Below the pieces are notes generated by a model. It had not been told where the DNA came from, did not search any database, and saw only the letters and a list, made by a program, of their open reading frames with translations. Both the position numbers and the translations under genes were made by a program. Of a DNA stretch of 64,000 nt, positions 2,025 to 53,402 are shown piece after piece; the first letter of the stretch is position 1, and the number at the start of each line of letters is the position of its first letter. This stretch comes from Bacteroidota bacterium (lineage in GTDB: Bacteria; Bacteroidota; Bacteroidia; Bacteroidales; JAADJA01). Location of the stretch: assembly GCA_020444515.1 (NCBI GenBank), contig JAHLKX010000003.1, positions 1 through 64,000 on the forward strand. The letters run 5' to 3'.

Positions 2025-2990
2025 TCAATTCCAGGGCAATTTTTGTAAATCGACATTTCCACCTGAAATAATGATTCCAGTGCGTTTGCCTGCAAAGATA
2101 TCATGATTCTCTAATATGGCAGCAAAAGGTACTGCCGAAGAGGGTTCAACAATAATTTTCATCCGCTCCCAAATAAGCTTCATGGCGGTAACTATGGAGT
2201 TTTCTGACACCCGCAGGATATCTGATACATATTGCTGAATAATGGGGTAAGTCAAGGTTCCCATGGAGGTAAGCAGTCCATCAGCAATGGTATTAGGGTT
2301 GTTGGAGGGGATAAACCTACCTTCATAAAAGGACCGGTATGCATCATCGGCTCCGGCTGGTTCTGCGGCCATAACCTGTATATTTGGAGCAAAATATTTA
2401 GCAGCGAGTGCAGTACCACTCAACAGGCCTCCTCCCCCAACAGGAGCCAGGATTATATCCAGATCCTTAATGTCCTCAATGAGTTCTTGTGCAGCCGTTG
2501 CCTGACCAGCGATGATCCGATAATCGTTGTAGGGATGGATTTCGATAGCTCCTGTTTTTTCTATTACCTCTTTCAAGGTATCCTCCCTCGACTTGAGATT
2601 GGGTTTACAAAAAGTAATTTTACCCCCATAATGTTTCACTGCGGCAATTTTAACCCTGGAAGAATTTTCAGGCATAACAATATAAGCCTTTGCATTCCGC
2701 AGACCTGCCGCCCTGCTTAAGGCAGCCGCATGATTTCCGGAAGAATGTGTGCAAACCCCTTTAATCAACTCTTGCTTCTTAAGAGAAAAAACCGCATTGG
2801 TTGCGCCCCGCGATTTAAAAGCACCCGCTTTTTGAAAGTTTTCGCATTTAAAATAAAGAAAAGCGTCTGTAACGGTATTTAAATTTTCGGAAGTGAGAAT
2901 AGGGGTTCTATGAATAAAAGGCCTAATATTATGAGAAACCGTAACAATATCCTGCCGGTTGGGCAATGTCTGAAACTCCACTGACTGCAC
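2025..2990 (-). CDS. PLP-dependent threonine dehydratase / serine racemase family
   Basis: A fold-type II PLP enzyme of 321 residues without the C-terminal ACT-type regulatory domains of biosynthetic IlvA, so it matches the short catabolic threonine ammonia-lyase/serine racemase group. The Schiff-base lysine is K59 in FKSRGA, SSGNHA at 83-88 lines the substrate carboxylate, and GGGGLL at 185-190 binds the cofactor phosphate. Products would be 2-oxobutanoate and ammonia from threonine, or D-serine/pyruvate from serine; sequence alone does not decide. The start is a GTG at 2990, leaving only 2 bp after the upstream phosphatase gene, so the two are probably co-transcribed. Its position inside the conserved dnaA cluster looks like a lineage-specific insertion. 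Confidence 0.88.
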   Translation of the reverse strand: MQSVEFQTLPNRQDIVTVSHNIRPFIHRTPILTSENLNTVTDAFLYFKCENFQKAGAFKSRGATNAVFSLKKQELIKGVCTHSSGNHAAALSRAAGLRNAKAYIVMPENSSRVKIAAVKHYGGKITFCKPNLKSREDTLKEVIEKTGAIEIHPYNDYRIIAGQATAAQELIEDIKDLDIILAPVGGGGLLSGTALAAKYFAPNIQVMAAEPAGADDAYRSFYEGRFIPSNNPNTIADGLLTSMGTLTYPIIQQYVSDILRVSENSIVTAMKLIWERMKIIVEPSSAVPFAAILENHDIFAGKRTGIIISGGNVDLQKLPWN

Positions 2991-2992
2991 TA

Positions 2993-3463
2993 TTAATTCA
3001 ATTGTTCTTCTTTGAGGGTATCGGCAATCCTTTCACAGGCCTTATGCAGCAATTCAAAGGTTTGATCATAGGCATCATTATTCTGCGCATGAGGATTGGG
3101 AATGGGCTCATTTTTACCGGGATTGATAACATTCATCAAAAAATCGACTTTGGTCCGGTCCAGATCATCCCGTGCAAATTCAATGGCATTGCGATAGGCC
3201 AACGTATCCATGACATAAATTTTATCAAATTTGTCAAAATCCGATTGTGTAAATAACCTAACCCGTTTCGTTGAAATATCCACACCCTTATCCATCGCTT
3301 TTCTGATTACATGATCCTCGGGTGATTCATTGATATAATAGGCTTCAAAACCTGCAGAATCAACAAAGGCATCAATGTTTCTGTTTTTAAAGATCAACTT
3401 GAGTAGTCCTTCAGCCAGTGGTGAGCGACACATGTTCGCATTGCATAAAAACAAAATTCTCAT
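2993..3463 (-). CDS. Low-molecular-weight protein tyrosine phosphatase homologue, general acid substituted
   Basis: The 156-residue protein has the LMW-PTP fold. The phosphate-binding loop is intact: C7 and R13-S14 in CNANMCRS fit the C-x5-R-S rule. The usual DPY motif that supplies the catalytic general acid is replaced by NPH (N123-P124-H125), so dephosphorylation of tyrosine may be slow or the protein may act on another substrate. A more distal aspartate (D130) could substitute. The gene lies between dnaA and the PLP enzyme gene, 118 bp after dnaA's stop, all on the minus strand. Cytoplasmic, no signal peptide. An arsenate-reductase-like role cannot be excluded from the fold alone. Confidence 0.8.
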   Translation of the reverse strand: MRILFLCNANMCRSPLAEGLLKLIFKNRNIDAFVDSAGFEAYYINESPEDHVIRKAMDKGVDISTKRVRLFTQSDFDKFDKIYVMDTLAYRNAIEFARDDLDRTKVDFLMNVINPGKNEPIPNPHAQNNDAYDQTFELLHKACERIADTLKEEQLN

Positions 3464-52962: not shown

Positions 52963-53047
52963 GCCCGGGTGGTGGAATTGGTAGACACGTTGGACTTAAA
53001 ATCCAATGGCCATTGCGGCCGTGCGGGTTCAAGTCCCGCCCCGGGTA
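52963..53047 (+). tRNA. tRNA-Leu (TAA)
   Basis: 85-nt class II cloverleaf: acceptor GCCCGGG pairs with CCCGGGT, anticodon loop ACTTAAAAT with anticodon TAA, long variable arm, T-arm GCGGG-TTCAAGT-CCCGC, discriminator A. No CCA is encoded. Its 3' end is repeated downstream at 53328-53374. Confidence 0.96.
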
Positions 53048-53050
53048 CTG

Positions 53051-53079
53051 AAAGGGTATTTTTTAAATACCCTTTTTTT
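53051..53079 (+). terminator. Terminator after tRNA-Leu
   Basis: AAAGGGTATTT-TTT-AAATACCCTTT followed by more T. It lies directly after the tRNA. Confidence 0.88.
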
Positions 53080-53094
53080 ATTAAATCAAGGCGA

Positions 53095-53326
53095 ATGTAT
53101 TTTGTTTATGCTATTAAAAGGATTCAACGTAAATATATTTACATTGGAATTACTGATAATCCCAAACGCAAGCTTAACCAAAATCAACAAGGTTATGAAA
53201 ATTACAAAGCCTAACAATCCCTCCAAATTAGTTCTACTCAAAGGTTTTGATTCCAGACCAGATGCACGAAAAAGGGAGAAGTATCTAAATTCAGGCTTCG
53301 GAAAAGAATTTCATTATTCAATCTAA
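53095..53326 (+). pseudogene. GIY-YIG endonuclease gene with a frameshift
   Basis: The frame from ATG 53095 gives MYFVYAIKRIQRKYIYIGIT, the Y-V-Y...Y-I-G pattern of a small GIY-YIG nuclease, then NPKRKLNQNQQGY, before it stops at 53214. The rest of the family's C-terminus (TKPNNPSKLVLLKGFD, then ARKREKYLNSGFGKEF) continues in the +1 frame to a stop at 53326. Removing one A from the AAAA run at 53198-53201 would join the two halves as GYEITKPNNP. A normal member is about 77-80 residues, which matches the joined length. It is either a decayed gene, a sequencing error or a frameshifted product. It is flanked by tRNA-Leu and a copy of that tRNA's 3' end. Confidence 0.8.
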
Positions 53327-53327
53327 A

Positions 53328-53374
53328 GTGCGGGTCTGCCTGCCAGCAGGCTGGTTCAAGTCCGCTTCCGGGTA
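53328..53374 (+). repeat. Interrupted copy of the tRNA-Leu 3' end
   Basis: GTGCGGG followed, after a 19-20-bp palindromic insert, by GTTCAAGTCCGCTTCCGGGTA. Compare tRNA-Leu 53021-53047, where GTGCGGG is continuous with TTCAAGTCCCGCCCCGGGTA. The insert contains CCTGC-CA-GCAGG. It cannot fold into a full tRNA, so it is a remnant or attachment-like duplicate. Confidence 0.75.
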
Positions 53375-53381
53375 AAAAAAT

Positions 53382-53402
53382 GGCGCTTACAGCGCCTTTT
53401 TT
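53382..53402 (+). terminator. Terminator after the tRNA-Leu 3'-end copy
   Basis: GGCGCT-TAC-AGCGCC followed by TTTTTT. It may be the original terminator of tRNA-Leu before the intervening segment arrived. Confidence 0.85.

Follow-up and report, generated by a model that had tools for sequence, protein, structure and literature searches.

The window, a stretch of 64,000 nucleotides from a Bacteroidota genome (G000), contains an intact tRNA-Leu(TAA) gene whose 3' segment is repeated downstream, with a terminator and a small, broken GIY-YIG nuclease gene lying between the two copies (Table 1). The whole decayed unit spans about 330 bases and holds little beyond this one gene. A first-pass annotation, made from the sequence alone, had described the repeated tRNA-Leu segment as split by a palindrome and followed by a terminator of its own, and the ARAGORN call and the direct repeat confirm that description.

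Table 1. Features of the tRNA-Leu locus in the window. The assignments as restored, imported, displaced or original rest on comparison with other genomes.
Feature	Coordinates	Strand	Basis or comparison
tRNA-Leu(TAA), intact, presumably functional	52963..53048	+	ARAGORN
Restored, unit-borne 3' part of the intact tRNA-Leu(TAA)	begins ~53028	+	
Terminator GGGTAT..ATACCC, imported by the unit, sequence GGGTATttttttaaATACCC-T(n)	53054..53079	+	common to occupied sites L058/L190 and L046/L189
GIY-YIG nuclease pseudogene, ~77 codons	53095..53326	+	PF01541 match; intact frames in G014 and G011
GTGCGGG, short repeat of the tRNA-Leu bases preceding the interruption point	53328..53334	+	identical 7 nt ahead of the palindrome in L058 and L071
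Palindromic 20-nt insert TCTGCCTGCCAGCAGGCTGG at the T-stem/T-loop boundary of the displaced copy	53335..53354	+	
Displaced original tRNA-Leu 3' end, decayed, TTCAAGTCCGCTTCCGGGTA	53355..53374	+	direct repeat and empty-site comparison
Original tRNA-Leu terminator GGCGC..GCGCC, sequence GGCGCttacaGCGCC-T(n)	53382..53402	+	empty sites G006, G009

The nuclease gene had also been reported as broken by a single base, which proved correct. The frame that opens with the ATG at 53095 reaches a stop at 53212-53214, and the remainder, up to 53326, resumes the family in another frame, so that a one-base shift breaks family continuity and no intact reading frame is left. The N-terminal half (39 residues) matches PF01541 with E=4.6e-6, and the copy scored 23.6 bits, with 1 stop, when its own genome was scanned with that profile. 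The palindrome in the window is imperfect as well: its folding against shuffles gives z of about -1.9 (p 0.075) when taken alone, and it lies 3 substitutions away from the perfect palindrome CCTGCCTGCCGGCAGGCAGG found at the same site in the G014 unit (L058/L190). Because the nuclease gene is broken and both the palindrome and the tRNA remnant are decayed, the window copy is, to judge from its sequence, inactive. The split-tRNA arrangement that it preserves is not a product of chance, since it recurs in many genomes.

By its sequence features, the protein is a GIY-YIG nuclease. Intact relatives score over the PF01541 cut-off, residues Y5, Y16, G18, R26, H30 and E62 are invariant in 19 relatives, and the AlphaFold model is confident (pLDDT 96). 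Profile comparison recovered as sequence relatives the UPF0213 proteins BH0048 and EF2693 (E 1e-15), SLX1 (6e-8) and I-TevI (1e-3), whose catalytic domains are the same GIY-YIG domain; the UPF0213 entries are hypothetical proteins, and SLX1 and I-TevI carry further domains that are absent here. NCBIfam has no family above threshold for the small GIY-YIG proteins. A phage collection and a plasmid collection held 14 and 5 relative records, respectively, all below 60% identity, and because these relatives are so few and distant no vector could be identified. Among intact nuclease genes pN is far below pS, from which we infer that active units retain their protein; with dS largely saturated, dN/dS can be read only qualitatively.

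Occupied and empty tRNA-Leu sites

The locus formed by tRNA-Gly and tRNA-Leu is occupied by the unit in the window genome, G011 and G014, and is free of it in G003, G006, G008, G009, G013 and G015, so that occupied and empty alleles differ between species of one genus. At this site the nuclease frame is open over 80 codons in G014 and over 89 in G011, where the unit (L046/L189) runs off the contig just past the start of the palindrome. Comparison with unit-free strains, which had been proposed in the first-pass annotation, does turn up uninterrupted homologous sites. The one in G008 (L191) has an 86-nt tRNA-Leu identical to that of occupied G014 (L190) and the same transporter gene downstream, with no downstream tRNA copy.

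The terminators allow the two tRNA ends to be told apart. In the empty sites of G006 and G009, GGCGC/GCGCC stands directly after tRNA-Leu; the window and G014 have this terminator behind the far copy. All three occupied sites have GGGTAT/ATACCC after the intact tRNA-Leu, whereas empty sites carry other terminators. Since the empty-site terminator matches the one after the far copy, we take the far copy to be the original tRNA-Leu end. By the same comparison, what the unit contributed was the restored 3' part with its terminator, the nuclease gene, and the palindrome with the GTGCGGG that precedes it. The unit-free G008 site and the swapped terminators thus agree with the earlier proposal that an incoming unit restored the tRNA and left the old end behind; they demonstrate, by comparison, that a unit entered an empty site, that the tRNA was restored and that the old end was displaced together with its terminator.

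Units and palindromes at other tRNA genes

We scanned this genome with PF01541 and obtained 8 matches, of which 2 are long proteins (630 and 454 residues) and 6 are small. Five of the 6 small genes adjoin a same-strand tRNA gene, namely Leu, Val(TAC), Arg(CCT) and, twice in tandem, Arg(ACG), and each of these 5 units has across the gene a partial, hairpin-interrupted tRNA copy; the sixth small gene (L012, C4:7520) has no tRNA nearby. As the genome has just 41 tRNA genes in 5.0 Mb, we estimate that a randomly chosen gene would have a same-strand tRNA within 300 bp in well under 1% of cases. The hairpin CCTGCCTGCCG...GGCAGGCAGG occurs in the D-loop of the tRNA copies of both Arg(ACG) and Arg(CCT) at an identical position, GGATA^GA, and in the tRNA-Val copy TCCCGACTAACAAGTCGGGA replaces the anticodon arm. 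The Arg(ACG) units are mirror forms, with the 5' part of the tRNA duplicated and the nuclease gene upstream of the intact tRNA.

Palindromes were also seen at non-tRNA sites (L099, L100) and in tRNA fragments that have no nuclease gene. At L098 (~1340-1711; C3:184.8-185.1 kb of the window genome) and L061 (1036-1455), tandem tRNA-Met 5' fragments with upstream sequence bear hairpin inserts and have no nuclease gene between them; these fragments are possibly non-autonomous derivatives.

The first-pass annotation had proposed a search of relatives for small GIY-YIG genes beside tRNA genes, to see whether each has a downstream tRNA-end copy and the palindrome. Such genes are found throughout the genus and beyond, and the far side normally holds a hairpin-split copy, often with CCTGCC...GGCAGG. 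About 80 further small loci came from a PF01541 search of 40 related genomes. Species genomes were also scanned widely with a single Arg-type protein as the query, which yielded 80 loci from Bacteroidota, Chlorobiota, Patescibacteria lineages, Verrucomicrobiota, Omnitrophota, Elusimicrobiota and others. Across the relatives and the multi-phylum scan, a same-strand tRNA lay within 300 bp in 88 of 164 small GIY-YIG loci (35/66 in the genus set, 9/18 in the order set and 44/80 in the wide set), while an opposite-strand tRNA lay within that distance in none of the 164. Many of the loci without a nearby tRNA are at contig ends or come from a separate protein group. We also ran a profile, A2, on 198 Bacteroidota genomes sampled evenly over the phylum, and 126 of them had a match. 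Among the 29 best-hit loci examined, 28 had a same-strand tRNA within 212 bp and none had one on the opposite strand, the single exception being cut by a contig end, and 26 had a tRNA copy across the nuclease gene. Because the rows of A2 were drawn from tRNA-adjacent loci and best hits were the ones examined, these figures test that subfamily and not all small GIY-YIG genes.

Intact units of 300-370 bp, each with a GIY-YIG gene, recur in many genomes, and units are found at the tRNA genes of most amino acids, including in candidate phyla. Tandem units are frequent, with two in L010 and L062 and three in L027, L069 and L229. That such a unit enters at a tRNA 3' end, as had been inferred for the window, holds there and in relatives, but entry is not confined to 3' ends: in mirror units the 5' part of the tRNA is duplicated together with upstream sequence, and the unit lies upstream of the intact tRNA. 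In several of these 5' forms there is no gap between the nuclease gene and the tRNA start, or the two overlap, so that a single transcript may cover both. At L108, L111, L112, L113 and L116, the GIY-YIG frame abuts the start of the intact tRNA or overlaps it by up to a few bases, and it apparently ends within the tRNA, with a stop triplet taken from the tRNA sequence. A further locus, L030 (831-2572), is an array in which two identical GIY-YIG genes are surrounded by many copies resembling tRNA-Val, whose anticodon arms are altered.

Judged from the protein tree, the relatedness of the nucleases follows tRNA identity across taxa. Placing tRNA identity on the tree takes 40 changes, against a mean of 62.8 when identities are shuffled (minimum 56, 500 shuffles), and the multi-phylum set alone takes 25 against 32.3 (minimum 27). 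The Leu clade, with 99% support, unites the window, G011 and G014 with a member of another family of the order. The nuclease alignment has few columns, and the deep forks of the tree are unresolved.

The palindrome that had been noted as splitting the tRNA copy in the window is present, but it is not an incidental detail of this locus, as inserts of this kind recur, nearly always in tRNA loops or at stem-loop boundaries. An automated count found terminal stems of at least 6 in 26 of 62 inserts; since insert edges are ambiguous and this procedure undercounts, we curated inserts by eye and folded them. Forty of 49 curated inserts fold at z<-2 relative to shuffles. On ARAGORN structures, 33 of 37 lie in a loop or exactly at the end of a helix and the other 4 lie within a helix by one or two bases (for this count, two tRNA-Leu(TAA) inserts were placed at GTGCGGG^TTC). 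Many other inserts split the T-loop at GGTTC^GA. The insert ends CCYGCC..GGCRGG recur from Bacteroidota to Patescibacteria in inserts whose sequence is otherwise variable, and different palindromes can occupy the same tRNA site. Within the Arg nuclease clade the palindrome follows nucleotide 9, 18 or 22, and because its position differs within one clade the palindromes need not mark the cut exactly. At L221 and L229, paired hairpin inserts flank a 5-nt piece of tRNA (GGTTC or GGTTG) and have complementary TAAA/TTTA ends, as if made to pair.

A homing interpretation and its rivals

We consider it probable, though well short of certain, that the window preserves an inactivated copy of a minimal mobile element, of the homing-endonuclease type, whose targets are tRNA genes. 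The first-pass annotation had already suggested that the nuclease itself may have driven the homing. When active, such a unit would comprise about 300-370 bp, with one GIY-YIG gene of about 80 codons, a piece of tRNA at one end (the 3' part with a terminator, or the 5' part with upstream sequence) that would rebuild the split tRNA, and at its other end a short palindrome, within the displaced tRNA remnant. The nuclease would cut one type of tRNA gene, in or near the arm that bears the palindrome, and repair templated by the unit would copy the unit in while the tRNA stays functional. The palindrome would part the half-sites of the remnant, so that the remnant is no longer a target, and repeated cutting could explain the tandem arrays. 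Two comparative criteria for a free-standing homing gene, a polymorphic site and protein relatedness that follows the target, are fulfilled; cleavage of the tRNA gene, the specificity of the nuclease, the position of its cut and the role of the palindrome are all inferred. One difficulty for homing remains unresolved. In the occupied allele the remnant is interrupted by the palindrome, yet the restored tRNA retains the uninterrupted sequence, so that a unit should cut its own chromosome unless it is protected or the cutting is tolerated in some way; with the target kept in the restored tRNA, one or the other has to be in place. Also weighing against homing are the palindromes at non-tRNA sites or in tRNA fragments without a nuclease gene, and the varying palindrome positions within the Arg clade.

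Several other explanations could account for parts of this pattern. It is possible that the palindromes are the actual mobile units and are moved by the small GIY-YIG protein, much as RAYT transposases are believed to mobilise REP sequences, with tRNA arms favoured for their resemblance to recognised hairpins and an intact tRNA surviving only by means of the rest of the array. The recurrence of CCYGCC..GGCRGG ends across phyla at the same structural positions would fit, as would inserts at helix ends, the palindromes carried by nuclease-free tRNA fragments (L061, L098), the other dispersed palindromic repeats that flank a non-tRNA sister group of the nucleases and the presence of the structure-specific SLX1 among the sequence relatives. 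We nonetheless regard this explanation as unlikely, although worth keeping in mind, because the exact palindrome of the window is rare in its own genome (10 sites at up to 2 mismatches), unlike a REP, and because nuclease clades track tRNA identity and not palindrome sequence, with the same site holding different palindromes. We give little credence to a system acting at the level of RNA, in which a hairpin-bearing, tRNA-like transcript would guard against a tRNA-acting nuclease, or be its substrate, after the manner of a toxin and an RNA antidote. The placement of palindromes in loops would keep tRNA-like folding, and co-transcription is possible where the nuclease gene abuts the tRNA in the 5' form, but the duplicated stretches extend into upstream sequence or terminators, which favours a process at the level of DNA, empty alleles are common, and to our knowledge DNA is the substrate of the GIY-YIG enzymes that have been characterised.

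The tRNA ends at this locus also recall genomic islands. Displaced and restored tRNA 3' ends are a hallmark of tyrosine-integrase islands (established knowledge; Islander), and the feature could in principle be the remnant of one, stripped of nearly everything and with the GIY-YIG gene as a passenger. This seems to us extremely improbable, since intact units of the same size (300-370 bp) with a GIY-YIG gene recur in many genomes, and neither mirror 5' units nor palindromes are features of islands. The units examined have room only for the GIY-YIG gene, which bears out the earlier observation that no integrase is present. Finally, although tRNA genes do duplicate in tandem, a chance duplication with a bystander gene can scarcely be entertained when the nearby tRNAs are on the same strand in 88 of 88 cases, the clades are tRNA-specific and the hairpins stand at recurring positions, and we consider it refuted by these counts. 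A search of 20 tRNA-less loci against Rfam returned one group I intron (L129); splicing is unnecessary in the split-tRNA arrangement because a separate intact tRNA is present.

A broader reading is also possible. We raise only tentatively, and with more doubt than conviction, the proposal that small GIY-YIG nucleases drive an undescribed class of minimal bacterial mobile DNA over many phyla, which breaks essential genes for RNA (tRNA genes and, it appears, those of tmRNA and rRNA), rebuilds them from a carried copy and uses palindromes as its own machinery, as a counterpart of REP/RAYT that would include the dispersed palindromic repeats of non-tRNA members. Selfish genes in essential genes normally hide in an intron or intein or sit beside their target; these units seem to have found a different way, in which the tRNA is split and a functional copy is returned. 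Their spread may account for numerous tRNA pseudogenes, and likewise for numerous annotated GIY-YIG proteins of 80 residues that have no assigned role. Nucleases of 80 residues, each apparently tied to one type of tRNA, would also form a panel for studying how small proteins choose DNA sites. We found no description of such tRNA-splitting GIY-YIG units in the open-access literature searched, which is weak evidence of absence.

Known systems and small GIY-YIG genes away from tRNA genes

The closest known case is SegB of phages T4 and T6, a free-standing GIY-YIG homing endonuclease that, in the passages covered, is described as cutting inside tRNA genes and promoting its own inheritance (PMC13096335, PMC2988022), with the motif RAWTSGAAC and nuclease-dependent tandem amplification of tRNA and segB (PMC13096335). 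By our comparison, the reverse complement of that motif, GTTCSAWTY, corresponds in sequence to the T-loop motif that many inserts split here. Both systems have GIY-YIG genes near tRNA genes and both have tandem copies; however, SegB is borne by phages, between the tRNAs of a phage array, whereas the units described here are chromosomal, have one nuclease clade per type of tRNA and split and rebuild the tRNA gene. They also leave a displaced tRNA remnant with a palindromic insert, and those passages describe neither for SegB. In CPR bacteria, GIY-YIG-encoding insertions that are not introns occur in rRNA genes, where most insertions are at the top or base of stem-loops (PMC11270868). These resemble our units in placing a GIY-YIG gene in an insertion in a structural RNA gene, but they lie inside the rRNA gene, and the main text of that paper mentions neither tRNA nor palindromes.

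REP/REPIN-RAYT systems are similar in pairing short palindromes with a small gene whose product processes DNA. Their enzyme, RAYT, is a Y1/HUH transposase and REPs are abundant and intergenic, whereas here the enzyme is a GIY-YIG protein and the palindromes are in tRNA copies; a REP/RAYT system proper is ruled out, as the gene is GIY-YIG and there is no Y1/HUH transposase. Tyrosine-integrase islands likewise restore the tRNA and leave a displaced end behind. Our units differ in their 300-370 bp size, their 5' mirror forms and the palindrome at the displaced junction, and identity with such an island is ruled out by the lack of an integrase gene in the element.

The sister group of small GIY-YIG genes that are not near tRNAs (L013, L015, L016, L018, L020, L022, L033, L051, L059, L072 and, in the window genome, L012) is flanked, often on both sides, by other dispersed palindromic repeats, which vary from locus to locus (examples are GTCATCCTGAGC..TCGAAGG and GTCATTGCGAGC..GAAGCAATC). 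This hints that palindromic repeats may be connected with small GIY-YIG genes in general. In two genomes, at L122 (~2820-3139) and L128 (~2827-3265), a GIY-YIG gene lies directly upstream of the tmRNA gene, and hairpin inserts with CCCGCC-type ends are found in and just ahead of the tmRNA. At L166 (2395-4208), which is of the same kind as the CPR rRNA insertions, a 16S rRNA gene is interrupted near its 5' end by a GIY-YIG gene, which occupies the loop of a stem.
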